A stretch of DNA of 64,000 nt from Promethearchaeota archaeon (lineage in GTDB: Archaea; Asgardarchaeota; Lokiarchaeia; Sigyniarchaeales; SOKP01). Both the position numbers and the translations under genes were made by a program. The DNA is taken from the NCBI GenBank assembly GCA_030603385.1, contig JAUVXW010000001.1:62001-126000 (forward strand). Direction: 5' to 3'. Each line of letters starts with the position of its first letter. Within the stretch, counting starts at the first letter, position 1. Under the pieces are notes generated by a model. That model was not told the DNA's origin. It made no database searches and saw nothing but the letters and a program-made list of their open reading frames with translations. Positions 35,536 through 63,044 of the stretch are shown piece after piece.

Positions 35536-36963
35536 TTAATCAAAGTTAGGTCTTTTATCTTGCCAAGGAGCTAGTTCTTCAAATGCTTTTGAAACTTGTA
35601 AAATTAACAATTCCTGAAATCTTTTACCAACGATTTGCAATCCTATCGGTAGGTTGGCATTTGTCCATCCACAGGGAATAGTAGCAGCAGGATGTCCTGT
35701 AAAGTTAAATGGAAATGTAAATGCTTGCCACGCTGTGGGAGATACATTAATTCCATTTATTTGTGAAGGATAAGCATCTCCTGATTCAAAAGCTGGAACT
35801 GCTGTTGATGGAGTAAGAAGTATATCATAGTTTTTAAAAGTTTCGAATATCACTTGATAAAACTGACTACGAGTTCTCATAGCGTCTGGTAAACTAGAAG
35901 CAGGAAATCGTAATCCCGCTTTGACCCATGTTACTAAATTTGGATCTAGTTTATCTTTCCATTCTTCCAAATAAGGTTTTAATTCATGTCCAAACATTAT
36001 TAACCACATTGTACTAAAAGCCATTGAAGGATCCAACTCTTTAAATTTTGCTTCTTCTACTTCCCATCCAAATGATTCAAATTTATGGACTGAATTAATT
36101 ACTGCTTTTTCAACCTCTTTATCAACAATCTTTGCAAAGCCTAAATTTAAACTATAACCAATCTTTAATTTATCTGGTTTTTCATTTATATGGTCAGTGT
36201 ATTTTATATGATCTTCCGGTAATGAATGTCTATCCCCCTCAAATGGCCCCTTCATAGCATCTAGCATTAGTGCTGCATCGGAAACATATCTTACAATAGG
36301 GCCAACAACAGATAAGGTTTGACCACTATGGAAAGTTATTGGATAAATTGGAACCCTTCCAAAGCTGGGTTTAAGACCATAAACTCCGCAAAAACATGCA
36401 GGATGTCGAATAGAACCTCCTCCATCTGAGCCTTGAGCTAAAGGCCCCATTCCACAAACAACTGAAGCCGCAGCACCTCCACTAGATCCTCCAGACGTTT
36501 TCTCAAGATCCCATGGATTTGGTGTAACTCCAAAAATGAGATTATCAGTAACTCCTTTAAAACCGAATTCAGGCGTATTTGTTTTCCCTAAAATTACACA
36601 ACCCGCATCTTTTAAACGTGTTACAGCAATCGCATCTTCTTCAGGAATGTGATGTTCATAAATTTTTGAACCATAAGTGGTCCTCACCCCTTTGACTGAC
36701 AATAAATCTTTAATAGAAGTTGGGATCCCATTTAGAAGAGGTATTTTTTCCTTTCTCTTTACTCTTTCATCTGCTTTTTTTGCCATTTCCCGTGCTAAAT
36801 CGAAAGTTGGGGTACAATATGCGTTAATTATTGGATTAATCTTTTCAATCCTTTCAATAATTATTTCAGTTATTTCCTGCGAGGTTAATTCTTGATTATC
36901 TATTTTTTCTTTCATTTCCCAAGCGGGCATAAAGCATATGTCGTCTTTATTCATTTTTTTCAC
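35536..36963 (-). CDS. amidase (amidase-signature family)
   Basis: A 475-residue amidase-signature enzyme with a complete Ser-cisSer-Lys triad: Lys in GIPTSIKDLLSVKG, cis-Ser in TSGGSSGGAAASV and nucleophile Ser in GSDGGGSIRHPA. The C-terminal TIPCGWTNANLPIGLQIVGK is typical. The family hydrolyses C-N bonds and includes GatA and fatty-amide hydrolases. The lack of neighbouring gatB/gatC argues against a tRNA amidotransferase. It is 36 nt downstream of a closely related paralogue. Confidence 0.92.
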   Translation of the reverse strand: MKKMNKDDICFMPAWEMKEKIDNQELTSQEITEIIIERIEKINPIINAYCTPTFDLAREMAKKADERVKRKEKIPLLNGIPTSIKDLLSVKGVRTTYGSKIYEHHIPEEDAIAVTRLKDAGCVILGKTNTPEFGFKGVTDNLIFGVTPNPWDLEKTSGGSSGGAAASVVCGMGPLAQGSDGGGSIRHPACFCGVYGLKPSFGRVPIYPITFHSGQTLSVVGPIVRYVSDAALMLDAMKGPFEGDRHSLPEDHIKYTDHINEKPDKLKIGYSLNLGFAKIVDKEVEKAVINSVHKFESFGWEVEEAKFKELDPSMAFSTMWLIMFGHELKPYLEEWKDKLDPNLVTWVKAGLRFPASSLPDAMRTRSQFYQVIFETFKNYDILLTPSTAVPAFESGDAYPSQINGINVSPTAWQAFTFPFNFTGHPAATIPCGWTNANLPIGLQIVGKRFQELLILQVSKAFEELAPWQDKRPNFD

Positions 36964-36999: not shown

Positions 37000-38469
37000 T
37001 TAAATTAATTTTGGTTTTTTATCTTGCCATGGAGCAATCTCTTCAAATGCCTGTGAAACTTGTAGAACAGTAACCTCATCGAATCTCTTTCCAATAATTT
37101 GCATCCCAATAGGTAATCCATCACTAGACCAACCACAGGGAATTGAAGCTGCGGGGTGACCAGTCATATTGAAGGGATGAGTATAGGGTGACCAAGCTCC
37201 CGCGGAAACCTTTTTGCCATCAATTTTACTAGGAGAGGATACACCTAATTCAAAAGCAGGGCATGCCATTGTTGGGGTAATTAAAATGTCATAATCTTTA
37301 AAATGTTTACACACATTATCATAAATAACTTCTCTTTGTATTTCAGCGGTATAGATATTTTCTGGGGTAAGTTGAAACCCAAATTGAGCCAGTTGAACTA
37401 ATCCTTGGTCTAAAATATCCCCATATTGCTCAACTATCGGTTTTAGAAAATATCCAATTCCATATGCCCAAATAATATTCCAAGTCAAACCATAATTTTC
37501 CACACTCACTTTACCTCTGAGTGTTTTTCCGGGTGATAATAAATTAATATTGCTTTTTTCAACTGACCAATTTAATTCTTCAAATTTTTTAACAGCATTT
37601 AGTACTGATTTCTCGACTTCAGAATGAATAATTTCTAGATTTCCTAAATCTATTGCATATCCTATCTTCAGTTTTTTAGGAGTTTCTTCTAATGCATCAT
37701 AGAAGCTATAGTTTGGTTTTGGTAAGGAATATCTGTCTATATCATCAGCTCCAACTAAAGCATCTAACATTAATGCAGCATCTTTTACATATCTAACTAG
37801 TGGTCCCTTTTGAACGTATGTACCCATAATACCCTCTAATTTCACAGATGTTTGTGGAATCCGTCCGAATGTTGGTTTAATACCATATAATCCACAAAAA
37901 CTACTTGGAATACGGATAGAGCCTCCCCCATCTGAACCTTGAGTTAAAGGACTTAATCCAGAAGCAGTTGCTGCTGCTCCTCCGCCAGTAGACCCTCCAG
38001 CAGTCCTTTCTAAATGCCATGGATTTTTGGTTTCACCAAAAATTAAATTATCCGTGTTTCCTTTATACCCAAAGGCAGGCATGTTTGTTTTACCTAATAT
38101 AACTACACCGGCTTCTTTTAATCTTTTGACCGCTATATCATCGTTCGGTGAAATATAATTTTCAAACGCTTTACAGCCACACGTGGTTCTAATTCCTTTA
38201 ACATCAACATTATCTTTGATAGATGTTGGTATACCATGTAATAGTCCTAATTTTTCACCCTTTTTAACAGCAGCATCAGCTTTTTTTGCCAAACCTCTAG
38301 CTAATTCAAAAGTAGGTGTACAATATGCATTAATTATTGGATTTATTTTTTCTATTCTTTCAATTATTATTTCAGTTATTTCTTCTGATGTTAATTCTTG
38401 AGTGACAATTTTTTGTTTCATTTCCCATGCGGGCATGAAATAAATTTCTTCTTTATTCATTTTTATCAA
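37000..38469 (-). CDS. amidase (amidase-signature family), paralogue
   Basis: A 489-residue paralogue of the next gene, with the same N-terminal PAWEMKQKI and a complete triad: Lys in GIPTSIKDNVDVKG, cis-Ser in AGGSTGGGAAATA and Ser in GSDGGGSIRIPS. The second Ser of the GGSSGG signature is Thr here, which does not remove the triad. The two genes form a tandem duplication with a common promoter side near 38470. Substrates are unknown. Confidence 0.92.
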   Translation of the reverse strand: MIKMNKEEIYFMPAWEMKQKIVTQELTSEEITEIIIERIEKINPIINAYCTPTFELARGLAKKADAAVKKGEKLGLLHGIPTSIKDNVDVKGIRTTCGCKAFENYISPNDDIAVKRLKEAGVVILGKTNMPAFGYKGNTDNLIFGETKNPWHLERTAGGSTGGGAAATASGLSPLTQGSDGGGSIRIPSSFCGLYGIKPTFGRIPQTSVKLEGIMGTYVQKGPLVRYVKDAALMLDALVGADDIDRYSLPKPNYSFYDALEETPKKLKIGYAIDLGNLEIIHSEVEKSVLNAVKKFEELNWSVEKSNINLLSPGKTLRGKVSVENYGLTWNIIWAYGIGYFLKPIVEQYGDILDQGLVQLAQFGFQLTPENIYTAEIQREVIYDNVCKHFKDYDILITPTMACPAFELGVSSPSKIDGKKVSAGAWSPYTHPFNMTGHPAASIPCGWSSDGLPIGMQIIGKRFDEVTVLQVSQAFEEIAPWQDKKPKLI

Positions 38470-44089: not shown

Positions 44090-45118
44090 TTAAGAGATAG
44101 TAGAACTTTTGTTTTTAAGAATTTTTTCTGCCTTTTTAGCAAACCCAATTACAATTTCATCAACATCTAAAACTGAATCTATTAGACCACATGATTGTCC
44201 TACTGGTACTGCCCCATTATCCACATCGCCCTTAGTATAGACAATCTCATATTTATGGAAATCATCCATAAGATTCTCAATGTTGTTGAATAAACTCTTT
44301 TCATATGTAATTTTTTCTTCTTTCGTCATAACTCTACCATGTTCTAAGCAAAATCTATTTTTGATTAATCTTATTGGACCAAAGCCTCCTGTAGTTAGCA
44401 TAGTATCATTATCTGTAGCTGGAGGAATTAATGCCTTATAATTGGGATGGAATTCACTCTCCTTTGATGCTATGAATCTGGTTCCCATGACAACAGCATC
44501 AGCGCCCATGACTAGTGCTGCTGCTATTCCTTCTGGTGTTGCTATTCCACCACAAGCGACGGTTAGCATGTCAGGATATTTTTGGGTTATTTCTTGTACT
44601 AAAACTAAAGTAGTGATACCCTCATAACTCTGGTGCCCTCCGCCTTCAGTGCCAGTAGCGACAATACCATTACATCCAGATTCAACCACTTTATCTGCAA
44701 GCCATAAAGCTGGCGCTACATGAAAATGGTACATTTCGGGACATGTTTTTTGCCACAATTTAGCTGCTACTCTCGGACCTCCAGCACTCGTCAAACCATA
44801 AATCATCTGTTCTCTAATTTTTGGATTTTCCTTACGCCATTGCCCTACTTTTCTTAATAAAATCCTATGATCTGTTTGCATTCGTGCAACTCGAATATTA
44901 AATCCAAATGGTTTATCAGTAGCTTCTATAACTGTATCAATCTGATCTTTAAAATCTAAAATTGAGTTTTTTCCTTGTAAAGTAGCATGACTTATTACCC
45001 CTAATCCACCTGCTTCTGATACAGCAATGGCTAACTGAGTTGTATAAAAGGGTCCCATTGGTGCACTAATTATAGGATATTTTATCCCAAATTTTTCAGT
45101 AATTCTTGTTTTTATCAT
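44090..45118 (-). CDS. nitronate monooxygenase / FabK-like FMN enzyme
   Basis: A 342-residue TIM-barrel flavoprotein. KYPIISAPMGPFYTTQLAIA, SEAGGLGVISHA, GIVATGTEGGGHQSYEG and the phosphate-binding CGGIATPEGIAAALVMGAD with VVMGTRFIAS are typical of the 2-nitropropane dioxygenase/FabK family. Such enzymes oxidise nitronates or reduce enoyl thioesters with FMN. The extra C-terminal region and acyl-CoA neighbours leave an enoyl-thioester role open. Confidence 0.88.
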   Translation of the reverse strand: MIKTRITEKFGIKYPIISAPMGPFYTTQLAIAVSEAGGLGVISHATLQGKNSILDFKDQIDTVIEATDKPFGFNIRVARMQTDHRILLRKVGQWRKENPKIREQMIYGLTSAGGPRVAAKLWQKTCPEMYHFHVAPALWLADKVVESGCNGIVATGTEGGGHQSYEGITTLVLVQEITQKYPDMLTVACGGIATPEGIAAALVMGADAVVMGTRFIASKESEFHPNYKALIPPATDNDTMLTTGGFGPIRLIKNRFCLEHGRVMTKEEKITYEKSLFNNIENLMDDFHKYEIVYTKGDVDNGAVPVGQSCGLIDSVLDVDEIVIGFAKKAEKILKNKSSTIS

Positions 45119-46193: not shown

Positions 46194-47693
46194 TTATTCT
46201 ATAGAGATAATAGTATTTCTTTCAATATTAGAATCATATTGAACCATACATGTTTTTCCAACTATTTCTTGAGTCTCTAAAGCAAGAAGCAACTCTGGTT
46301 TAGTAACGAATGCAATACTACGACTCCCATTTTCAAGAGTACCTATTATAACTCCTCTGTTAGGTTGCCCTGATCGCTTATAAATAATAGAATATCCATC
46401 AACAATGAGTTTACCATTCGCTTTTTCAATTGGTTCCGGTAGTATTTTTTTTAAAATTGAATCTTGTATTTTAGAGTCATCCCGAACACCCCATTGTATC
46501 ATAGGTGGTTTTGTTCCATAGATCCCAATTGATTGTTTAGTGTTATATCCACCATTTGCTATAACCATCACTTTTAATGAAGGGTTGGCACGAATTGATT
46601 CAACAGTGTTGATAATTGCATGTAAAGAATAATTGCTTAAAGGAGTCCCAAAAAATGGAAGACCTCCTGTGAGTGTCAGATCACGCGGATCATCGTCTTT
46701 AATTCCAAGCTCATTCATAAAGATCTCTACAATTGAAGGAAAACAGCTATATAAGTCAAATTTATCAATATCACTTAACTTTAAACCCGCTTGTTCCAAA
46801 GCAAGGCGAGTTCCTTCTCTTGTTGCTGGAGAATCATCAAGTCGCGGACGTCGATAAATCTCATCAATATTTTTGAATGTTGCTCCTCCCATTATATATA
46901 TCCATTGTTTTCTATCAATATTAAGAAATTCAGCAATTTCTTCACTTGTAATTAAAACTGTTCCAGCTTGATCTACGAAATTGTTCGCGCACATACGCTT
47001 AGTGTAAGGGTGTACAATAAGACGATTCTCAGGTGAGGGTGTAATAATTTCTTCAGCGGTAAATTGCTTTTGAGTCCAGCTATAAGGATTTTTTGATGCA
47101 ATCTTAGAAAAATGTTCAAAGAGTTTTCCTATATATTTTTGGTGTTCCTCAATAGTTCGTCCAGATGATGCTCTTAATGCTGTTTCGAAAATTGCATAGG
47201 CAGTAGTTGCAAAATATAATTGGTAATTTATAACATCTTGAGCGATTGCCCATCTCTCCCCATTTATGTATTTTGGATCTTCTTTTTTCGGCCAATACTC
47301 AGGACGTTTCCCCTTAAATGTCTTTCGTATAGAATAGGCAGCCTCTCCGCCTGTAACGAGAATGCAACGGTGCTCTCCAGTGGCAATTGCTTTAGCGGCA
47401 CGATTAATTAACATTTGAGGACTTTGTCCTCCATCGGGCAAATAAATTTTCTCTTTAGGTGTGATATTGAGCCTTTTCCCAAGTTCCCCAGGTGCATCTT
47501 CATATAACCATGAACTGATATTCACCATATAAATTGCATCTATATAATCAACGATATTGTTAGCTTGTGTATCTTCTATTGCCTTTTGCCCCGTCTTTAC
47601 CATTAAACTAAGTGAGTCAAGAGGCTGGGGTGTGTCTCTACGTTGTGTAAACTGTGCGGCACCAATTATAACTGGATTGTTTTTTTTACTCAT
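46194..47693 (-). CDS. thiolase-fold acetyl-CoA acetyltransferase-like protein
   Basis: A 499-residue thiolase-superfamily protein of the long subgroup with a C-terminal strand-rich extension. ANNFVDQAGTVLITS, DKFDLYSCFPSIVEIFMNEL and LTLTGGLPFFGTPLSNYSLH match this subgroup. The nucleophile position that is Cys in thiolases reads Gly-Gln in LPDGGQSPQMLI, so normal thiolytic chemistry is doubtful. No DUF35 gene is adjacent, and the C-terminal extension (from ~400) may replace it. It is probably an acyl-CoA lyase or regulator. Confidence 0.8.
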   Translation of the reverse strand: MSKKNNPVIIGAAQFTQRRDTPQPLDSLSLMVKTGQKAIEDTQANNIVDYIDAIYMVNISSWLYEDAPGELGKRLNITPKEKIYLPDGGQSPQMLINRAAKAIATGEHRCILVTGGEAAYSIRKTFKGKRPEYWPKKEDPKYINGERWAIAQDVINYQLYFATTAYAIFETALRASSGRTIEEHQKYIGKLFEHFSKIASKNPYSWTQKQFTAEEIITPSPENRLIVHPYTKRMCANNFVDQAGTVLITSEEIAEFLNIDRKQWIYIMGGATFKNIDEIYRRPRLDDSPATREGTRLALEQAGLKLSDIDKFDLYSCFPSIVEIFMNELGIKDDDPRDLTLTGGLPFFGTPLSNYSLHAIINTVESIRANPSLKVMVIANGGYNTKQSIGIYGTKPPMIQWGVRDDSKIQDSILKKILPEPIEKANGKLIVDGYSIIYKRSGQPNRGVIIGTLENGSRSIAFVTKPELLLALETQEIVGKTCMVQYDSNIERNTIISIE

Positions 47694-52619: not shown

Positions 52620-53666
52620 TTGAGAATAGTTGATTTTCGTTCTGATACCGTTACTAAACCATCACCAGAAATGTGGGAGGCAGTTAAATCAATGGACAAT
52701 TCTAAACTCGGAGATGATGTTCTCGGAGAAGATCCTACTGTTAATGAACTAGAAAATAAAGCAGCAAAAATTACTGGAAAAGAAGCAGCTTTATTAGTAA
52801 CGTCGGGTACTCAAGGAAATCTTGTTTCACTTCTTTCGCAAACTAATCCTGGAAATGAAATCCTTTTAGAAGAACAAAGCCATATTTTTGGGCACGAAGT
52901 TGGAAGTGCTGCTCGTATTGGAGGCTTGATGATAAGTACATACCCTACAGAACGAGGAGTTCCATCGATTGAGCAACTTCAAGATTTAATTCGAGATAAA
53001 GAAGATATACATGAACCAGCAACAACTCTAATATCTGCAGAAGATACACATAATTTTCATGGTGGTGCGATAGTGAAGCCAGAAATCCTAAGAAGTTTGA
53101 AAGATTTTGCCCAAAGAAACGAATTAAAATTTCATTTAGATGGTGCAAGAATATTTAACGCCGCTGTAGGACTAAACATACCTGTAACAGAATTTACTAA
53201 ACAGGTAGATAGTGTAATGTTTTGTTTATCAAAGGGTTTGTCATGTCCTGTTGGATCTATAGTCGCGGGCACTAAAGAGTTTATTTCAAAAGCTCGGAAA
53301 TTTCGCAAAATGGTTGGAGGTGGTATGCGACAAGCAGGGATAATCGCCACTTTTGGGTTAGTAGCACTTGAACCTAAATGGATTAAAAGATTAGAAGAGG
53401 ATCATAAAACCGCTAAAATATTTGCTGAAGGATTGAAGGGATTTGATTTACCTATTAAAATCCATGACCCCGATACCAATATTGTTATTGTTGAATTTCT
53501 GAATAAAGTTAGAATTTTTAAAATAATTTCAGAGTTAGGAAAGGAAGGGGTCTTAGCGTTTAATATAAGTAAAGAAAAAATACGTTTTGTTACCCATTAT
53601 GGGATTCAAGAGGATGATATTCAATCTAGCATAGAAATAATAGGAAAAGTTTTACAAAATCTGTAG
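52620..53666 (+). CDS. threonine aldolase
   Basis: A 348-residue PLP enzyme. VDFRSDTVTKPSPEMWEAV, the TSGTQGNLVSLL phosphate loop, HLDGARIFNAAVGL (cofactor Asp) and FCLSKGLSCPVGS with the Schiff-base Lys define the GLY1/LtaE family. It splits L-threonine or allo-threonine into glycine and acetaldehyde, or runs in reverse. The start is TTG behind AGGTG. It stands alone and is convergent with the acyl-CoA cluster. Confidence 0.93.
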   Translation: MRIVDFRSDTVTKPSPEMWEAVKSMDNSKLGDDVLGEDPTVNELENKAAKITGKEAALLVTSGTQGNLVSLLSQTNPGNEILLEEQSHIFGHEVGSAARIGGLMISTYPTERGVPSIEQLQDLIRDKEDIHEPATTLISAEDTHNFHGGAIVKPEILRSLKDFAQRNELKFHLDGARIFNAAVGLNIPVTEFTKQVDSVMFCLSKGLSCPVGSIVAGTKEFISKARKFRKMVGGGMRQAGIIATFGLVALEPKWIKRLEEDHKTAKIFAEGLKGFDLPIKIHDPDTNIVIVEFLNKVRIFKIISELGKEGVLAFNISKEKIRFVTHYGIQEDDIQSSIEIIGKVLQNL

Positions 53667-53713: not shown

Positions 53714-54244
53714 TTACTCTTTATGTAGATCTAAATCTCTTGCATTATCTTCTACTAAATCATAGTATTCAATATCAGCTAAACTTCCCTTAAGATCTTC
53801 ACTCCAGTGTACCTTTACAGGCATTCCAATATAAGTATCCTTATAATCAACTTCGGGATTCAATTCAACCATATATACTGTGTCTGCTCCATCCTGACGA
53901 ATCAACACCATTGGCTTCTCTTGAACTTTACCTGTACCTGGGTCTTTTAAATAAGCGATAGTAAAACTAGAGACCTCACCGGTTTCTCTTAAATCAACCC
54001 ATTGATTAGGTTTTATTAGACATTGTCCACATACTAGTCTTGGTGGAAAAAATACTCTATTACATCCTGGGCATTTTAACCCCACTAATTTTTTTTCTTT
54101 CAGCTTCTTTAAAAAGGGTTGCATGTGTGTAAGGTTAAATTTATATGTATAACTAGATAAATACCAGTTACCAGGCATTGTTCTTGTTTTCACATAATCC
54201 TTCTTAACATAATCTAAAGATTTCCTTTGCGTTCGTTTTGACAT
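53714..54244 (-). CDS. DUF35 zinc-ribbon/OB-fold partner of thiolase-fold protein
   Basis: A 176-residue protein: N-terminal helix, rubredoxin-like zinc ribbon LKCPGCNRVFFPPRLVCGQC (~64-83), then an OB fold (ETGEVSSFTIAYLKDPGTGK onward). DUF35 proteins bind thiolase-superfamily enzymes and can shuttle CoA intermediates between them. It lies 6 nt after the thiolase-fold gene at 54251-55498, with which it presumably forms a complex. Confidence 0.9.
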   Translation of the reverse strand: MSKRTQRKSLDYVKKDYVKTRTMPGNWYLSSYTYKFNLTHMQPFLKKLKEKKLVGLKCPGCNRVFFPPRLVCGQCLIKPNQWVDLRETGEVSSFTIAYLKDPGTGKVQEKPMVLIRQDGADTVYMVELNPEVDYKDTYIGMPVKVHWSEDLKGSLADIEYYDLVEDNARDLDLHKE

Positions 54245-54250
54245 TTTAAA

Positions 54251-55498
54251 TCACCTCCATTTTCTTTGTGGTTCATCTGACATTACCATCATTGTACATA
54301 AATTAAGGGATCCCCCCCATCCATGACCAATAGCAGTATGTACCGTTTTAGGAACCTGATTACTAGCTTTCCCCATTATTTGGAGTGCTGCTTCAGCAGG
54401 TCTTTCTAAGGCAGAAGCTCCAATTGCGTTTGTTGAATTGACACCTCCAGAACAACATATTGGCAATTCACCTTTTAATGAAGTAATCCCATTTTCATAC
54501 ATCTGTGGAGCCGTAGTCTCTTCGAATAATCCAAGCTTTTCAACCCACATTAATTCTTGATTAGGGAACGGAGAATAAACTTCAGCGTAGTCAATTTCTT
54601 TTCTAGGAAATGAGATTCCTGCCTGACCGTAAGCTAATTCAGCAGACTTCATTGCTCCCAGTTGTTCTGAGGGATCTATTTGTCCTGAACCACTACAATT
54701 ATAACCAAGAACAGCAGTCTCATGGGCAATACTGGATACACCATTTACATAAACAGGAATATCGCACATATTTTTAGCTTTTTCTTCTGTAGTAAATAAA
54801 ACCGCACATGCACCATCGCTAGCCGGACAAACCATCCCATATCTTAATGGATACGAAATATAAGGTGTGTCTAAAACTTGCTCAATTGTAAGATCTGGCA
54901 TTTTCAAATGAGCCCACCATGTTTTTGCTGCATTGCGTCTATTTTGGACGACAACCCTTGCTAAATCCTCTTCCGTTATTTTTGATTTATGCATATAGTT
55001 AGTAGCTTGATAGGAAGCTACACCAATTGCAGCACCGGCAGATAGAATACGGGTTAAACGTTCATATGTAATTCCCAGTGTATTATATACAGTAATTTCA
55101 CCGTATGCTACACTAGCTAGACCAGTAGCGGTGTTGCCCTGACTTTGTTGTTCAAAACCAATAGCAAGAACCGTATCTATTCCAGGTAATCCTGCCGCAA
55201 CCGAATAATACCCCGCAATCGCGACAGTACCTCCCGTAGTACCTCCTGTTGTAACTCGCATTAAAGGTTTATTTCGTGCCCCCATCCAGTCTGTCATCCA
55301 TAATTCAGGAATATTTGCCCCTTCAAATGCAGGCATGTTACCATTTACATAAGCATCAATATCTTCAAAACTTATGCTTGGAACTTTCTTTAAGCAATCT
55401 TCTATTGCTTCGCTTATTAATTCTGGCATATTTACATCGGATCTTTTTGAAGCATGTTCAGTAAAACCAGCTGAAACTATAGCAACTTGTCTTCCCAT
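54251..55498 (-). CDS. thiolase-fold acyl-CoA enzyme lacking the nucleophilic Cys
   Basis: About 415 residues of a SCP2-thiolase-like fold. QVAIVSAGFTEHASKRSD opens the domain and AEVYSPFPNQELMWVEKLGL and GHGWGGSLNLCTMMVM close it. The nucleophile loop that is Cys in thiolases reads VTTGGTTGGTVAI, with Gly at that place, and the C-terminal GHP His is replaced in CSGGVNSTNAIGAS. The start is ATG 55498 behind GGAGGGGAG; a longer frame overlaps the preceding gene. It is probably an aldolase- or condensation-type enzyme acting with its DUF35 partner. Confidence 0.87.
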   Translation of the reverse strand: MGRQVAIVSAGFTEHASKRSDVNMPELISEAIEDCLKKVPSISFEDIDAYVNGNMPAFEGANIPELWMTDWMGARNKPLMRVTTGGTTGGTVAIAGYYSVAAGLPGIDTVLAIGFEQQSQGNTATGLASVAYGEITVYNTLGITYERLTRILSAGAAIGVASYQATNYMHKSKITEEDLARVVVQNRRNAAKTWWAHLKMPDLTIEQVLDTPYISYPLRYGMVCPASDGACAVLFTTEEKAKNMCDIPVYVNGVSSIAHETAVLGYNCSGSGQIDPSEQLGAMKSAELAYGQAGISFPRKEIDYAEVYSPFPNQELMWVEKLGLFEETTAPQMYENGITSLKGELPICCSGGVNSTNAIGASALERPAEAALQIMGKASNQVPKTVHTAIGHGWGGSLNLCTMMVMSDEPQRKWR

Positions 55499-55499
55499 T

Positions 55500-56642
55500 T
55501 TAATTACTCCCCTCCAATACATATAATATATTATTTTGTGCACACATCCCTATTTGACCGGATGCAATAGCTTTTTTAACACCTTTAACTTGATATCCAT
55601 TAGCTTCTCCTGTGAGTTGTTTAACGGCTTCAATTATTCTTATTATTCCCGTTGCACATGGAGGATTACCTCCTATTGCACCTCCAGAAGGATTTATTGG
55701 CAAATTTCCATTTATTTCGGATTCGATACTAGCACCTTTCCCTTTATCAGCAAATCCTAGTGCTTCAGCAAATATCAATTCTTCATGAGCATAAGCTTCA
55801 AAAAATTCAGCAACATCAATCTCTTCCTTTGGATTTTTTATTCCAGCAGTTTCAAATGCCATTTTACCCGCCTTTTCCATAGATTTGCAAGTTGATAAAT
55901 CTCTATCACCAAGATAATAGGTATCTTGACTATACCCTACACCTGTAATCCAAACGGGGCTATCTGTTATTTTTAAAGCTTGTTTCTCAGGAGCTAATAG
56001 TAAAGCTGCAATACCATCGCAAGGTTGTGCTACCATTAATTCTGTTACTGGATCAGCATAAATTTCTGATTCTAATATATCTTTTACTGTAATATTAGCA
56101 TTTTGAGCTTCTTCTAAGGCTAATGGATTTTTTGCTGCATTTTTCCTATTTTTCACAGACACTTTAGCAATGTCATCAACACTAACCCCATACTTCTCCA
56201 TATATGCTCTCATCTGAAACCCTGCAGAAGTGATATCGTTCACATAAGCTAATGGGCGTTCCCATGTCGGATCTGTTTCATACAATCGAGCAGAATGGTA
56301 TGGAAAACATGAGGCCATGCTTCCCCCCCAAACGACAGCTAATTTATGATTACCTGATAATACTCTCATTAATCCATATAGGACAGCATGAGCACCATCC
56401 ATTTCTACTTTACTTTCATCTGTTAAGTATGATCCTCCAACATCCACTGTAAAACAATTTGAAATAGTTCGACCATCATAATAATCATTTGTGCAAGAAA
56501 CAACGGTAGTTATATCTTTTTTCTTTAGACCAGCTTTATCAATTGCACCTCGCACAGCTTCAAAAATCATTTCATAACGCCCATAATTAGCATCTGAATA
56601 TGATTTGACTTGATTATATCCTACAATACCTACTTTTTCCAT
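55500..56642 (-). CDS. thiolase-fold acyl-CoA enzyme lacking the nucleophilic Cys (second)
   Basis: About 380 residues. EKVGIVGYNQVKSYSDAN at the N-terminus, AVVWGGSMASCFPYHSARL, VDVAEFFEAYAHEELIFAEA and NPSGGAIGGNPPCATGIIR identify the thiolase superfamily. The nucleophile position reads Gly (KVEMDGAHAVLYG) and the C-terminal GHP His is Asn (GGNPP). The stop is separated from the next thiolase start by one base. The start is ATG 56642; the GTG at 56654 overlaps the ribosome site. Confidence 0.87.
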   Translation of the reverse strand: MEKVGIVGYNQVKSYSDANYGRYEMIFEAVRGAIDKAGLKKKDITTVVSCTNDYYDGRTISNCFTVDVGGSYLTDESKVEMDGAHAVLYGLMRVLSGNHKLAVVWGGSMASCFPYHSARLYETDPTWERPLAYVNDITSAGFQMRAYMEKYGVSVDDIAKVSVKNRKNAAKNPLALEEAQNANITVKDILESEIYADPVTELMVAQPCDGIAALLLAPEKQALKITDSPVWITGVGYSQDTYYLGDRDLSTCKSMEKAGKMAFETAGIKNPKEEIDVAEFFEAYAHEELIFAEALGFADKGKGASIESEINGNLPINPSGGAIGGNPPCATGIIRIIEAVKQLTGEANGYQVKGVKKAIASGQIGMCAQNNILYVLEGSN

Positions 56643-56657
56643 TTTTTTTATCACCTT

Positions 56658-57119
56658 TCATATTTTCACAAAACCCTTGATATCTGAAGGGTCTCCTTTA
56701 GTTTTTTCTCCCCATTCAATTTTAAATTTCATTCCAATCCGCAGTTCTTCCGGTACTATATTTAGTAATCGATAGATTATCGCTGTATTACTTCCTTCAA
56801 TTTGTACCATGCCCAAAATCTGAGGTTTTTTCACTTTTCTGCTAGATCTATCATTAACTTTATAATGAGTTATTGTGTAATTTTGTAGAGTTCCAGTATT
56901 TGGCAGGGCTACCCAATTTTTATCAAAATCTATCTTTTCATTACATTTCCCACAATATTTCCTAGGTGGTACAAAAACATCTCCACATTTTGGGCATTTA
57001 TTTCCTATTAACTCCTTGTTCTCAAGTGCATCATAAAATTTATCCATGTATTGACCAACCCAAAATGCAAATTCCGCTCTTACAGGTCCTTTATTAGCGA
57101 CTATTATTTTTTCAGACAT
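56658..57119 (-). CDS. DUF35 zinc-ribbon/OB-fold partner (first of the operon)
   Basis: A 153-residue protein: N-terminal helix WVGQYMDKFYDALENKEL, zinc ribbon NKCPKCGDVFVPPRKYCGKC (~42-61) and OB fold (PNTGTLQNYTITHYKVND). It precedes the thiolase-fold gene at 56642 by 15 nt, giving the order DUF35, thiolase, thiolase, DUF35 in one operon. Each thiolase-fold protein probably pairs with one DUF35 protein. Confidence 0.9.
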   Translation of the reverse strand: MSEKIIVANKGPVRAEFAFWVGQYMDKFYDALENKELIGNKCPKCGDVFVPPRKYCGKCNEKIDFDKNWVALPNTGTLQNYTITHYKVNDRSSRKVKKPQILGMVQIEGSNTAIIYRLLNIVPEELRIGMKFKIEWGEKTKGDPSDIKGFVKI

Positions 57120-57250
57120 AATTTAACAATTTAATTTTTTGAGATTCAATTGTGATAATTATATGATGTACATATATAAAACATTAATTTGAAAATGAAA
57201 GATATTGAATAAAACAATAGAAAAAAAAATAATAAAGGAGTTTATTTAAA

Positions 57251-58126
57251 TTATCTTTTATAGTTAAGCATAAAGTCAATTAACTCTGAATTTTTTTTAA
57301 AAACTTGTAACTGATTTTTTTTTAGTTTTTCAGTAGCTAATATCTTTAGTTCTTTTAGTTCAATCTCTTTTTCTCCGATCGCTTCACGAAGTATTGGTAA
57401 AAAATCACATATTATATGTAATTCTAAGACTTTGCCTTTGTACTTTTTCACCGCCAAATCACTAGCGAGAAACAAGTAAGCTGGTGATATGAAATCTGGT
57501 GGAACTGTTATAGGCATTTGTTGCCCCCATTTTCTTAAGTCTTCTGCCATTTTAGTTTCTACACCTGCTGGTGTAACAACATTGACATTAATATTATAAG
57601 GTTTTAACTCTAAACTCAAGCATCTTCCCATAGCGGATACTGCTGCTTTAGAAATAGAATATGCTACCTTATTTGGAGGAAAATAAACATTTCCATTAAC
57701 AGAAGACGTCATAACTATGCTCCCACTTTTTTGTTCAATCATTTTTGGTAGAACTTCCTTTATCATAGCATAATAGCTCAATATATTGAGGTTCAATAAC
57801 TTTTGGGCTTCTTCAATAGGAAAATCAACCACAGAAGAAACATGTGTCATCCCTGCGTTATTTATCAATATATCAATCTTATTAAAGTTTTCAAAATAGG
57901 TTTTAGCACATTCCCTAACACCTTCTAAAGTAGATAAATCAGCAGGTATCCCGAGTCCTTTGGTACCATATTTTTCAATTTCTTCAACCACTTGATTCAA
58001 TTCTACACTGGTTCGAGATGCTACAGCAACATTTGCCCCATTATTGGCTAGATCAAGAGCAACTTCTTTTCCAATACCTCGTCCCCCTCCTGTTACTAAA
58101 GAATTCTTTCCTTCAAGTAATTTCAT
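57251..58126 (-). CDS. short-chain dehydrogenase/reductase (FabG-like)
   Basis: About 290 residues with NSLVTGGGRGIGKEVALDLA, NAGMTHVSSV, SSVNGNVYF and catalytic YSISKAAVSAMGR. It matches 3-oxoacyl reductase-type SDRs. A C-terminal helical tail (~240-290) rich in Glu and Lys is an extension beyond the ~245-residue core. Reduction of a 3-oxo- or oxidation of a 3-hydroxyacyl-CoA would fit the cluster. The start is ATG 58126 rather than GTG 58138. Confidence 0.86.
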   Translation of the reverse strand: MKLLEGKNSLVTGGGRGIGKEVALDLANNGANVAVASRTSVELNQVVEEIEKYGTKGLGIPADLSTLEGVRECAKTYFENFNKIDILINNAGMTHVSSVVDFPIEEAQKLLNLNILSYYAMIKEVLPKMIEQKSGSIVMTSSVNGNVYFPPNKVAYSISKAAVSAMGRCLSLELKPYNINVNVVTPAGVETKMAEDLRKWGQQMPITVPPDFISPAYLFLASDLAVKKYKGKVLELHIICDFLPILREAIGEKEIELKELKILATEKLKKNQLQVFKKNSELIDFMLNYKR

Positions 58127-58331
58127 AAATATAACCACTTTAACTTAAATTTATGTAAATATATTTTAATCTAATTTTGTTGTAGTAATTTAAAAAAGTT
58201 AACTAGATTGCCATCCAATATTCAATAATTCAGTTTTAAAATCTTCATTAAAAACTTTAAATATAATAATGAAAAAAACTAAATTTAAAGCAAAATAAAT
58301 TAACAAAACTATAATAGTCTGTGCTTAAAAT

Positions 58332-59207
58332 ATGTCAGAAGATTACTCATCAAAATTGGTAATAAGTGCTGCTCTTGCGGGATCTATGACCACAAAACAA
58401 CAAAATCCCGCAGTCCCTTATACTCATGAAGAGTTTGGAGATGAAGCAAAAAAGTGTTTGGATGCAGGTGCATCAACAGTTCATATCCACGCAAGAGATC
58501 CTAAAGCAGGATATCCTACGCCTGATTTAGAAAGAATAAAAGCAGTCATAGATAATATTCATGAAAAAGCTCCGGAGATCATCATAAATATAACTAGCTC
58601 AGTAGGTCTTACGCTTGAGCAAAGAGTTGCTCCTACTCAGACATTTAAGCCATTAATCGCTTCATTAAATACGAATTCGATGAATTTTAGTATCGGAAAT
58701 TTTAAAACTGGTGAAATAGTTGGAAATGCTGATGGAGTATTTAGAAACACTTTTCACATAATTCAAACTCTTGCTAAAGCAATGAAAGAAGCTAAAACAA
58801 AACCGGAACTAGAAGTATATGATTTTGGAGGGTTGTATAATATATTATTTCTTAACAAACAAGAAGAGTTATTTGAGCAACCTCTTCATTTCCAATTTGT
58901 ATTTGGAACCTTGGGAGGTGTTCCTTTTTCTTATCAAAATTTAGCAGGTTTTCTCAATTTGATGCCTTCTGGATGTTCATGGAGCGTATGTGGAGTAGCA
59001 AAAGATCAATTTAGGGCAGGTTTATGTGCAGCAGCAATGGGAGGACACATTCGAGTAGGATTAGAAGATAATATTCGCGTCCCAGATGGTCGGTTAGCTA
59101 AAGGTTCATGGGAACAAGTAGAATGGGCTGCAAAAGTGGCAAAACTAGCAGGAAGAGAAGTAGCAACTCCAGATGAAACACGCAAAATTTTCAATTTGTT
59201 ACAATAA
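58332..59207 (+). CDS. beta-keto acid cleavage enzyme (BKACE/DUF849)
   Basis: A 291-residue TIM-barrel enzyme. NPAVPYTHEEFGDEAKKCLD, the zinc ligands in VHIHARDPKAG (~47-57), NITSSVGLTLEQR, SLNTNSMNFSIGNF, YDFGGLYNI and VGLEDNIRVPDGR are signatures of the Kce/BKACE family. These enzymes condense a beta-keto acid with acetyl-CoA to give acetoacetate and a CoA thioester. It lies divergent from the SDR and beside the third thiolase-DUF35 pair, so it probably supplies or consumes an acyl-CoA of this pathway. Confidence 0.92.
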   Translation: MSEDYSSKLVISAALAGSMTTKQQNPAVPYTHEEFGDEAKKCLDAGASTVHIHARDPKAGYPTPDLERIKAVIDNIHEKAPEIIINITSSVGLTLEQRVAPTQTFKPLIASLNTNSMNFSIGNFKTGEIVGNADGVFRNTFHIIQTLAKAMKEAKTKPELEVYDFGGLYNILFLNKQEELFEQPLHFQFVFGTLGGVPFSYQNLAGFLNLMPSGCSWSVCGVAKDQFRAGLCAAAMGGHIRVGLEDNIRVPDGRLAKGSWEQVEWAAKVAKLAGREVATPDETRKIFNLLQ

Positions 59208-59369
59208 GCTGAAATAATTTAAAGTTTAACCAATTATTACTTTTTATATTTACTCTTTTATCCAATTAACGTTGGTGTCTTTTGCAAGAGTAAAATCATG
59301 TTATATGTAAGAATTTATTTAAAGGAAATCAATAACATTAAAGAAAAAGAAAAAAAATTATTAAAATAA

Positions 59370-59972
59370 CTAAAAAGTAAATCCTTCAGGTAACTCAGAT
59401 TCAGATGTTCCTTCTAGGACGAACATTAAATCCATAATTGTATAAGTTGGAGTTTTTGTTCGAAAGATTGGAACAATTTTTTTCCCAATTTCAGGCTCTC
59501 CAACTGCTAGAACGCTCATAAGAATTGTAACAACCTCTTCATCAAATTCAACATTAATGAATTTTATAGGTATGGGTAGTGTGTTGAAAGCTCCAGACCG
59601 ATGAGTTACGATAAAAGAATGGATTGTTGCGGTTTTTCGAGCTTTATCGGATATATCAATAGGTGTTGCTCTTCTCAAACAATCAGGGCAAAAAATTCTG
59701 AAAGGTTCATAAATAGAGCCTTTTGTATCGCATTTATCATTATCGCATCTTGAAGCCATGAGTTTACCTTTCCCAAGAGATTCAAAAAATATAGCTTCAC
59801 CACCATAAGAGTGTATAAAGGTCATATCACGTGGGTTTGTTACACCTGCTAATTTTCCAGTATCTTTATTAAAAATTGGTTGATTTGCTTCCGGAATGTG
59901 AAACACTCCTCTCGGTTTATATCTACCATTGACTATATCAACAAAACCTTTTTCATTATCTTTTTTCACCAT
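59370..59972 (-). CDS. DUF35 zinc-ribbon/OB-fold partner (third)
   Basis: About 200 residues. The zinc ribbon has a longer loop between Cys pairs: CDNDKCDTKGSIYEPFRIFC then PDC (~80-105). The OB fold follows (KARKTATIHSFIVTHRSGAF). The ATG at 59972 lies behind GGAGGA and 2 nt after the preceding thiolase-fold stop. A longer TTG or ATG frame into that gene is not preferred. Confidence 0.87.
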   Translation of the reverse strand: MVKKDNEKGFVDIVNGRYKPRGVFHIPEANQPIFNKDTGKLAGVTNPRDMTFIHSYGGEAIFFESLGKGKLMASRCDNDKCDTKGSIYEPFRIFCPDCLRRATPIDISDKARKTATIHSFIVTHRSGAFNTLPIPIKFINVEFDEEVVTILMSVLAVGEPEIGKKIVPIFRTKTPTYTIMDLMFVLEGTSESELPEGFTF

Positions 59973-59974
59973 TA

Positions 59975-61396
59975 TTAATCCTCCTTTATTAAATAATTTG
60001 GATCCATTAAAATAGTACAAGTTACATGAGACCCTACTCCGGCATGGCTTATAGCTAATCCTCTTTTTGCTCCTTTAACTTGTAGACTTTCCCAATCTTT
60101 TGGTTTTTCCCTTCTAAAAGCTTTCCATTTCTCCTCAGGTTCATGAATTTCATCCCATCGGTTCCAGATATGGTAACCTATCTCTGCTATTTGCATAAGA
60201 CCTGTCGCTCCTACAGCATGCATACATCCTATTAACCCTCCACATGGATTGCTAGGTAGTTTTCCTGGTTTCTTAGTATTTGGGTTAATAACATACGCAT
60301 CTCCACTTTCAATATATTTTCTTCCTTCTCCATAAGGTCTTATCCCAATATCTTCATACGTCTGAATATCACTTATAGTAAATGCATCATGAAGCTCAAC
60401 CACATCAAGATCTTCACTAGGATCAATGACACCAGACATATTGTAAGCATAATAAGCAGAAATTCTAGCTGCCAAGAAACTCGTGAATCCAGGATAACGA
60501 TCTGCACCTGGAAATCTTTTCCCTAAATTGTCGTATTGTCCTTTTGTTTCATTAGGTAATAGTGGTATTTTCATATCACGACGATCTGCCACTCTTAGAG
60601 TATGGCTCCCCGCAGCAATGTAAATCCTTAGTGGTTTGTCTGTAATTTCATAAGCCGTCTTTTCATCACAAACTATTCCGCACGCAGAACCAACGCTCAT
60701 TAAGCAACAGTCTAAAACACGAAGAGGATATGCAACTATAGGAGAGTTAACCACATCCTCTACAGTAATATCCATCGGTCCTTGAGCATGTGGGTTCATT
60801 CTAGCATATCCTCGATTTTTAACTGCTATTTCTGCCATAGTGTTACGAAACGACTCTTCTTCCTTACCAAAGATTTTCCAATATCTCTGAGCCATGACCG
60901 CATAATAACCTGTATAAATATGTCCAAGAGGCGTTTCCCAATCCTTATCTGCTGCTGCTGAAATAAGATGATTACCCTCATCTGTTGGTACCTCATCCAT
61001 CCTCTCCCATCCTAATGCCAGAGTACAATCACTATATCCAGAAGCAACAGCTTTCACAGCTTCCCACATAGCAGAACCACCTGTGGCTCCCCCCGTCTTC
61101 ACACCTATATTACCTAGTGGATCCAACCCAAGTCTATCATGAATTACTGCTTCTCCAAGTAGTTGATCTCCAAAATGGTCAGCAAAATGACCATAATAAC
61201 AAGTGTGAATATATTGTTTCAGTTCGGTAGGAGTCATTTTAACGAAATCTGCTGCTGCTGTCAATGCTTCAACACATAATTCCTCAGTTCGAGTTTCAGG
61301 AAATGCCCGATCAAATTTTGACATTCCAGCTGTAGCTAAATACACAGGTCGCATTAATTTGGGTATTCTTAATTGCTTATCGCTAAATTTAATCAT
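59975..61396 (-). CDS. thiolase-fold acyl-CoA enzyme lacking the nucleophilic Cys (third)
   Basis: A 473-residue SCP2-thiolase-like protein. RPVYLATAGMSKFDRAFPET opens it. The nucleophile loop reads GNIGVKTGGATGGSAMWEAV, with Gly instead of Cys. In this copy the C-terminal His is kept (CMHAVGATGLMQI) and the last motif is ISHAGVGSHVTCTI. VVELHDAFTISDIQTYEDIG matches the active-site loop region. It is coupled to the following DUF35 gene. It is probably an aldolase/lyase or synthase rather than a thiolase. Confidence 0.87.
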   Translation of the reverse strand: MIKFSDKQLRIPKLMRPVYLATAGMSKFDRAFPETRTEELCVEALTAAADFVKMTPTELKQYIHTCYYGHFADHFGDQLLGEAVIHDRLGLDPLGNIGVKTGGATGGSAMWEAVKAVASGYSDCTLALGWERMDEVPTDEGNHLISAAADKDWETPLGHIYTGYYAVMAQRYWKIFGKEEESFRNTMAEIAVKNRGYARMNPHAQGPMDITVEDVVNSPIVAYPLRVLDCCLMSVGSACGIVCDEKTAYEITDKPLRIYIAAGSHTLRVADRRDMKIPLLPNETKGQYDNLGKRFPGADRYPGFTSFLAARISAYYAYNMSGVIDPSEDLDVVELHDAFTISDIQTYEDIGIRPYGEGRKYIESGDAYVINPNTKKPGKLPSNPCGGLIGCMHAVGATGLMQIAEIGYHIWNRWDEIHEPEEKWKAFRREKPKDWESLQVKGAKRGLAISHAGVGSHVTCTILMDPNYLIKED

Positions 61397-61709: not shown

Positions 61710-63044
61710 ATGGATACGAGAATTTCTGAGTTTGAACCCATCCGAATCCAACGATATGTTCCTGAATTGGATTTATTGAGTAATCCTGTTTTGAATGCAA
61801 AAGAAAAGGAATTTTTGGCCGATTTATATGATTTTATGGAAAAAGAACTCGATCCTGAGTTAAGAAAATTAGAGAATCTTAATTATTATGTAGAGGAACC
61901 AACCCAAGACAAGAAGAGGGAAATAGTAATTGGGATCATGAGAAAATTAGCAGAGAAAGGATATTACTCTACAGTACTTAATACTGAGAATTATGAAGTT
62001 GGCAGAATTACCAGAAATGCTCTTATAGCCTTTGCAATATGTGGGGGGCGATGGAGCGAATATAGTGAAAAGTATATAGCTGGGAATTACAGTATCGAAA
62101 TGGGAAGATTATCGGGAGGTACACTTTATTGTAACCCCATAAGTTATGCTTCTGATGAGGCACAGAAAGAACGATTTTTAGTGCCAGTTGCTAATGATGG
62201 TCAAATTGGAGCTTCAGCAATGACAGAATTTAATGCAGGTTCAGATATTTTTAGTATGGAATTGAGATTACATGAAAAGGATAATAAATTAATTGCAAAA
62301 GGCAAGAAATTATTTATTACTAATGGTATGATCGCTGATTTTATAGTTCTCTATGGACGATTGGATAATGGACAATTAGCTGCTGTAGTAGTTGATACTG
62401 AACATCAGAAATTAAGGAATTTCAGAAGTACTAGAGTAAGAACATATGGAATGACAGATGCTTTTGTAAGTCGTTTGATCTTTGATAGAGTAGAGCTCCC
62501 AAAAGAAAATATGCTTCACGGTCATGGACTTGATATTGCATTTCACCAATTAACTGAGGAGAGATTAGTCATTAGCGCTGAAGCACTTGGAGATGCAATG
62601 AAAAAACTCCTTTATTCTCATGCTTATGCTCTTCAGCGTATGCAATTTGAAAAAAGACTACACCAATATCAAGTTATTCGATTTCCTATTTCTAAAAAAA
62701 TCCGAGAACTAAATCTAATGTTTTCAGCATTAATCCAATATACAAGACAAATGGATGAGCATCCAGAATTAGGAAGTTCTAAATTAATGGCTGCTAATGC
62801 TATGGGGTTAAAAATTAGCTCTACTGAATTAGGATTTGAGAGTGCCATCCATTGCTTCAGAACCCTAGGAGGACGCGGATTCACCCGTCAATATGCTAAC
62901 GAAATAGGCTTGTTAGATCCCTATTGTATGCTTCACGGAGGAGGCTCTAATTATGTTTTAGAGGATAGTGAATCGCGAAGATTCTTTAAACATAAACCTA
63001 CCAGAAGAGAAGTCGAGGATATTATTCCGAAAATAGACTATTAA
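61710..63044 (+). CDS. acyl-CoA dehydrogenase-like flavoprotein
   Basis: A 444-residue acyl-CoA dehydrogenase-fold protein. Helical N-terminus, beta-domain motif GQIGASAMTEFNAGSDIFSM (~170-190), LFITNGMIADFIVL, and the C-terminal helical domain with CFRTLGGRGFTRQYANEIG and YCMLHGGGSNYVLED. In many members the catalytic Glu falls in the last region (YEGT); here it is HGGGS, so the base is missing or moved to another helix. It may be a dehydrogenase with a relocated Glu, or a non-oxidising homologue. ATG start. Confidence 0.87.
   Translation: MDTRISEFEPIRIQRYVPELDLLSNPVLNAKEKEFLADLYDFMEKELDPELRKLENLNYYVEEPTQDKKREIVIGIMRKLAEKGYYSTVLNTENYEVGRITRNALIAFAICGGRWSEYSEKYIAGNYSIEMGRLSGGTLYCNPISYASDEAQKERFLVPVANDGQIGASAMTEFNAGSDIFSMELRLHEKDNKLIAKGKKLFITNGMIADFIVLYGRLDNGQLAAVVVDTEHQKLRNFRSTRVRTYGMTDAFVSRLIFDRVELPKENMLHGHGLDIAFHQLTEERLVISAEALGDAMKKLLYSHAYALQRMQFEKRLHQYQVIRFPISKKIRELNLMFSALIQYTRQMDEHPELGSSKLMAANAMGLKISSTELGFESAIHCFRTLGGRGFTRQYANEIGLLDPYCMLHGGGSNYVLEDSESRRFFKHKPTRREVEDIIPKIDY

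Follow-up and report, generated by a model that had tools for sequence, protein, structure and literature searches.

What chemistry is carried out by three neighbouring thiolase-fold proteins that have all lost the nucleophilic cysteine of thiolases? The question is raised by a 64,000-nucleotide stretch of a Promethearchaeota archaeon genome, hereafter the window (positions 62,001 to 126,000 of contig JAUVXW010000001.1; G000:C4:62001-126000, from a genome of 3.9 Mb in 58 contigs). The window encodes the thiolase-fold proteins A, B and C together with the DUF35 proteins duf35A, duf35B and duf35C; gene positions follow the list of open reading frames (ORFs), and all six ORFs lie on the minus strand. 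A sequence-only reading had described them as three separate enzyme/DUF35 pairs in one cluster and as the best candidate for an undescribed system. The explanation that we favour, with moderate confidence and from sequence comparison, is a different one: A and B would form a retro-aldol lyase of the Ltp4-Ltp3 type, and C would be a second enzyme that became cysteine-less independently.

Replacement of the catalytic residues

Active-site columns were read from HMMER alignments to solved thiolases and from the family alignments collected here; residues of A are numbered from window base 55504. Glycine occupies the column of the nucleophilic cysteine of SCP2-type thiolases in A (54251..55543; likely start ATG ~55498), B (55500..56654) and C (59975..61396), as the sequence-only reading had stated. 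The VTTGGTTGG loop of A aligns with KIEAACASGG, VKTGGATGG of C is equivalent, and the loop of B reads VEMDGA; the latter is gapped by 1–3 columns in some alignments, with no cysteine near the loop in any case. The HDxF loop has become YSPF in A and FEAY in B, and is unchanged in C (HDAF). The histidine of the GHP motif is replaced by asparagine in A and B and kept in C (His393; GCMHAVGATG), which agrees with the claim that two of the copies lack the C-terminal histidine.

These replacements are highly conserved. In the A family, Gly88 is present in 174/175 sequences, the sole exception being a canonical thiolase-like outlier, and Tyr310, Pro312 and Asn359 are found in 173/175, 174/175 and 174/175, respectively. 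In B, glycine stands at the cysteine position in 88 of the 89 Asgard sequences, and alanine or glycine in Ltp4; Asp86, directly before the lost cysteine, is retained in 87/89 Asgard and 80/80 actinobacterial Ltp4 sequences. The HDxF site of B is variable, and a conserved catalytic set of tyrosine, cysteine or histidine is missing from this subunit. All 47 orthologue rows of C carry the glycine, and its three active-site motifs are essentially invariant across these rows, which are not all independent because some genes were fetched twice. Conservation of the glycine to this extent in all three families excludes chance and misalignment. The loss is also specific, since the same genome encodes four thiolases with the canonical cysteine. 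Two further cysteine-less thiolase-fold proteins of this genome were observed at L219:5677-6915 (minus strand) and L217:4457-5686 (plus strand); one is C-like (ATGGATGG, GCGHAVGATG), and the other has proline at the cysteine position (KNGPASGG) with HDAF and GHP intact.

If the proteins were still thiolases, a relocated cysteine would have to replace the lost one. Two residues could be considered for this role, namely Cys391 of C, which lies beside His393 and occurs in 45/47 rows and in the distant relatives L126 and L127, and Cys371 of Asgard B, which occurs in 87/89 sequences. However, Cys391 is threonine in one gene of genome G137 (fetched twice, as rows L086 and L120), Cys371 is alanine in 59/80 Ltp4 sequences, A has no such cysteine, and neither residue lies in the nucleophile loop. 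The nucleophilic cysteine of the CxS/CxG loop of SCP2-type thiolases was not found in the alignments of A, B or C. A cysteine shifted within the active site, which the sequence-only reading had named as a point to check, was likewise rejected, as the loop and its surroundings are cysteine-free and the candidate relocated residues are not universal. We therefore regard persisting thiolase chemistry as hardly tenable. The lost canonical set, and the lack of a conserved catalytic HDxF residue in B, would also suit non-catalytic pseudo-thiolases that bind coenzyme A (CoA) or serve in regulation. This is very improbable, given that the replaced sites are near-invariant across bacteria and archaea and that ltp3 and ltp4 are reported to be indispensable for degrading branched sterol side chains (PMC6273163).

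A and B as relatives of Ltp3 and Ltp4

Among NCBIfam families, A best matches PRK08313 (361 bits, the next family reaching 202 bits), whereas B matches several thiolase families, including PRK07937 (187 bits), which is not its top match. Neither curated cut-off is reached (514 and 419 bits), and our claim is therefore limited to A and B being homologues of this pair rather than equivalogs. Plasmid records show tandem relatives of B and A in the bacteria Streptomyces, Tsukamurella, Nonomuraea, Nocardia and Cupriavidus and in the haloarchaeon Natrinema; the Tsukamurella pair, at 734 and 593 bits, lies above both thresholds. From a genome scan 80 loci were kept, all of them actinobacterial. The gene order in Mycobacterium shimoidei and Mycolicibacterium rhodesiae is ligase, enoyl-CoA hydratase, P450, F420 oxidoreductase, DUF35, B, A and a KshA-like gene. 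It matches the listed order Rv3515c (fadD19), Rv3516 (echA19), Rv3518c (cyp142), Rv3520c, Rv3521, Rv3522 (ltp4) and Rv3523 (ltp3) (PMC6429209), which identifies PRK07937 as Ltp4 and PRK08313 as Ltp3.

Phylogeny agrees with this assignment. A maximum-likelihood tree placed A with Ltp3 and B with Ltp4 (support 100/99 for each clade) and united the two clades at 100/99 against C and the canonical thiolases; a first tree had given SH-aLRT values of 95 and 99 for the A+Ltp3 and B+Ltp4 clades. A and Ltp3 have the glycine, a Tyr-x-Pro motif and the asparagine in common, and B and Ltp4 the VEMD loop. Identity to the Ltp3-Ltp4 pair (Rv3523-Rv3522; ltp3/ltp4 of Rhodococcus rhodochrous) is 37–40% for A and ~30% for B. 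AlphaFold models of A and B, of middling confidence (pLDDT 64 and 71, pTM 0.74 and 0.79), matched archaeal thiolase/HMG-CoA synthase, SCP2 thiolase, BbsB, PhlC and Ltp2. Structure prediction, as advised in the sequence-only reading, thus confirmed the thiolase fold; the active site is beyond the resolution of these models, which speak for the fold only. BbsB and PhlC, among the top structural matches, and 6ESQ share the fold and the partnership with DUF35, but BbsB and 6ESQ differ in the alignments by keeping the nucleophilic cysteine and the GHP histidine. Both residues are also kept in PhlC.

The two DUF35 genes flank the pair. duf35B (56658..57119), upstream of B, matches OB_ChsH2_C (40.5 bits) and zf-ChsH2 (32.0 bits) of Pfam, both exceeding the cut-off; duf35A (53714..54244), downstream of A, has four zinc-ribbon cysteines and matches zf-ChsH2 (35.7 bits, cut-off 23.2), with OB_ChsH2_C remaining below the threshold (24.5 bits, cut-off 27.1). 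In a gene-order survey of 196 Asgard genomes, B immediately preceded A in the same orientation for 38/39 orthologues and 36/45 paralogues, usually overlapping or at most 35 bases apart. The strict order duf35B-B-A-duf35A is kept in the distant Asgard families f1, f14 and f16, A and B are also seen at the f3 locus, and a second, paralogous Asgard form is arranged as B-A-duf35-duf35. In actinobacteria the pair lies beside a single DUF35 protein that has two OB domains and, in Tsukamurella, also two zinc ribbons. Constant across these settings are a pair of thiolase-fold subunits and a pair of DUF35 domains, the latter fused in bacteria and encoded by separate genes in Asgard archaea. A and B thus appear to belong to one probably heteromeric unit with two DUF35 proteins.

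From these comparisons we conclude that A and B are, as judged from sequence, an archaeal version of the bacterial Ltp3-Ltp4 pair, which acts on the branched side chains of plant sterols, and hence a known kind in a new host. To call the cluster undescribed was therefore too strong, as the pair has been studied since 2012, when Wilbrink et al. reportedly investigated it genetically (cited in PMC6273163, PMC4761994 and PMC8708139). The open-access literature yielded nothing on Asgard archaea in connection with DUF35 or lipid-transfer thiolases. No full-length KshA homologue, the single marker used, was found in 39 related genomes including this one; the whole set gave only two partial weak matches. 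This makes a steroid substrate unlikely, and steroid degradation by the host was rejected on that marker. The substrate of A/B is probably not a steroid, and the setting of the unit in Asgard archaea is probably anaerobic.

C as a second unit

C is close to the NCBIfam family PRK06365, scoring 671 bits against a curated cut-off of 695 that none of 192 Asgard genomes passed; no member of this family with a tested function was found. In the tree, C forms a clade with its own relatives (100/99) and, with support of 97/90, joins a further cysteine-less thiolase encoded by this genome; the grouping falls among the canonical thiolases, from which it follows that C lost its cysteine separately from A/B. 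Its neighbour duf35C (59370..60020; likely start ~59972), a divergent partner that adjoins C in the Asgard loci examined, has no Pfam match above cut-off and was recognized with hhalign against the duf35A/duf35B profile (98.3%, E 1.3e-14). Each thiolase-fold gene thus adjoins a DUF35 gene, as the sequence-only reading had noted, and by their sequences duf35A, duf35B and duf35C all belong to the DUF35/ChsH2 class, with a zinc ribbon and an OB domain.

Pfam and NCBIfam identified, besides the thiolase domains of A, B and C, an acyl-CoA dehydrogenase (ACAD; 61710..63044, plus strand), which at the 13 f1 loci surveyed is found close to C. Most f1 loci also have a gene for a beta-keto acid cleavage enzyme (BKACE) near C, in the window at 58332..59207 on the plus strand (Pfam BKACE, 295 bits). 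The ACAD sequence TEERLV aligns with DYERVV of isovaleryl-CoA dehydrogenase (IVD), in which the glutamate is the catalytic base. The presence of an IVD-type ACAD beside C hints at a branched acyl-CoA.

Would A/B and C then serve one pathway on one acyl-CoA? They are often close: in 18/31 genomes C and an A-type gene are less than 10 kb apart, in several arrangements. However, A/B units are found far from C or with no C nearby (L101, L105, L107, L116, L117) and C with no A/B nearby (L118, L119, L120), negative counts that contig ends make imperfect, and the A/B genes near C are often 40%-identical paralogues rather than orthologues. A joint pathway is unlikely on this evidence, and we rejected it in favour of two systems side by side, duf35B-B-A-duf35A and C-duf35C. 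The gene-order comparison called for by the sequence-only reading therefore shows each unit to be conserved, and not the single cluster of three pairs. C is a plausible new cysteine-less variant, for which the sequence evidence is weaker than for A/B.

Proposed chemistry, neighbouring genes and meaning

Two characterized aldolases serve as references. In Sal (9MYR) glycine takes the place of the cysteine, and Tyr302 and Cys304 of the YDCY motif are the catalytic residues; Ltp2 uses Tyr294 of YDHF together with Tyr344, which corresponds to Gln352 of Sal (PMC12329534). Our alignment places Gln352 at the column of the GHP histidine and hence makes it equivalent to Asn359 of A and Asn330 of B. The unit described here resembles Ltp2-ChsH2 (6OK1) and Sal-Shy in combining a thiolase fold with DUF35 and in the tyrosine that replaces the HDxF histidine, and resembles Sal further in the glycine. 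It differs in its two distinct thiolase-fold subunits, which are predicted, whereas those of the references are homodimers. A keeps the catalytic tyrosine position of both, with a different partner residue. Neither the Ltp2 signature (YDHF and Tyr344) nor that of Sal (YDCY with catalytic Cys304) is matched by A (YSPF, Asn), B (FEAY, Asn) or C (HDAF, His). The proposed likeness to the Ltp2-ChsH2 type and the loss of the thiolase mechanism are nevertheless supported, and retro-aldol or condensation chemistry is the best inference from the sequences.

By analogy, A/B would most likely catalyse retro-aldol cleavage of a branched beta-hydroxyacyl-CoA. In a heteromeric carbon-carbon lyase of A, B and two DUF35 domains, the catalytic residues would reside in A, with Tyr310 acting as base at the place of the catalytic tyrosine of Ltp2 and Sal, and Asn359 occupying the place of Ltp2 Tyr344. 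As Gly88 leaves no nucleophile, no acyl-enzyme would form. The conserved Asp86 of B belongs to a loop that in thiolase dimers lies at the interface, so B probably shapes or completes the site. Deprotonation of the hydroxyl would be followed by breakage of the carbon-carbon bond, releasing an acyl-CoA, via its enolate, and an aldehyde or ketone; unlike this route, thiolysis would be impossible on a branched beta-carbon. For C-duf35C, acting after the IVD-type ACAD and with BKACE, both oxyanion-hole histidines would probably stabilize a CoA enolate, likewise with no acyl-enzyme, in an aldol, retro-aldol or related reaction.

Several observations weigh against this proposal. The second catalytic residue of either characterized aldolase (Sal Cys304, Ltp2 Tyr344) is missing from A, which has Pro312 and Asn359 instead, and the A protein of Natrinema has phenylalanine in place of the tyrosine. 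In the A/B-like pairs L124 and L125 (families f11 and f17), the B-side member carries YDPF and asparagine and its partner DDKF. The two clades thus do not divide their roles strictly, and the other subunit may have retained the catalytic motif or regained it. Ltp3 and Ltp4 were termed aldol-lyases on genetic evidence, because they are reported to be essential for C24-branched sterol side chains (PMC6273163, PMC4761994, PMC8708139). The chemistry suggested for C is read solely from which residues were lost and which were kept.

The cluster could also be biosynthetic, its enzymes catalysing condensations (aldol or Claisen-like, with no acyl-enzyme) or decarboxylating a malonyl-type CoA. C retains both oxyanion-hole histidines, the set that remains in decarboxylating ketosynthases whose cysteine is replaced, BKACE is reversible in principle, and a degradative substrate has not been identified for this cluster. 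We consider the biosynthetic direction rather unlikely, since the bacterial homologues of A and B show a degradative phenotype in genetic work, the tyrosine of A matches retro-aldolases, and CtSal, a relative with glycine for cysteine, has no malonyl-CoA decarboxylase activity (PMC12329534).

Of the neighbouring genes that had been taken as feeders of the three enzymes, the ACAD tracks C, and BKACE lies near both C and A/B (16/28 Asgard loci for the latter), whereas the links to acyl-CoA synthetase and crotonases are loose. The short-chain dehydrogenase/reductase at 57251..58138 (minus strand; Pfam adh_short) was rejected as a partner, as no such gene lies near A/B or C units in 37 Asgard loci. 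Homologues of a nitronate-monooxygenase-like (NMO) gene at 44090-45118 (minus strand) adjoin A/B in 7/28 Asgard loci, also in distant families (L110, L112, L115, L116, L117). As a partner common to Asgard and actinobacterial pairs it was rejected, a window-like NMO being found with tblastn at 1/80 actinobacterial loci. A predicted threonine-aldolase-like, pyridoxal phosphate-dependent gene adjoins duf35A (52620-53666, plus strand) and recurs beside the A/B unit in L091, L092, L094, L095, L100 and L103; an aldehyde link to A/B is possible. The window encodes a fourth cysteine-less thiolase-fold protein at 46194-47693 (minus strand), which resembles the TLP1/PRK08257 family (238 bits to 4EGV) and whose HDxF loop, YSCF, has the tyrosine and cysteine of the Sal/TbSLP active site. 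A 65% relative of it adjoins a second A/B unit in genome G190 (L093), with NMO and acyl-CoA synthetase homologues. Two adjacent amidase-like ORFs (35536-36963 and 37000-38469, minus strand), highly similar by eye, probably arose by tandem duplication in the recent past.

The cluster does not represent a novel type of system; it shows chemistry that is known, or nearly so, in a new host. Within this single group of genes the thiolase cysteine was lost at least twice. As a speculative extension that we consider doubtful, the Ltp3/Ltp4 type might be an ancient class of heteromeric aldolases with one DUF35 per subunit and a composite site of Tyr310 and Asn359 with Asp86 of the other subunit. Asgard archaea would employ it to cleave beta-branched, possibly isoprenoid, acyl-CoAs anaerobically and with no carboxylation step, and C might represent a separate class of cysteine-less carbon-carbon lyases with two histidines. 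The residues Gly88, Tyr310, Pro312 and Asn359 of A and Asp86 of B, together with the predicted composition of A, B and two DUF35 domains, make the mechanism of Ltp3/Ltp4 directly testable. The findings extend the range of an actinobacterial enzyme pair for sterol side chains to archaea, Asgard and others, which are probably not sterol degraders, and the basic chemistry of the pair would thus be wider than sterols.

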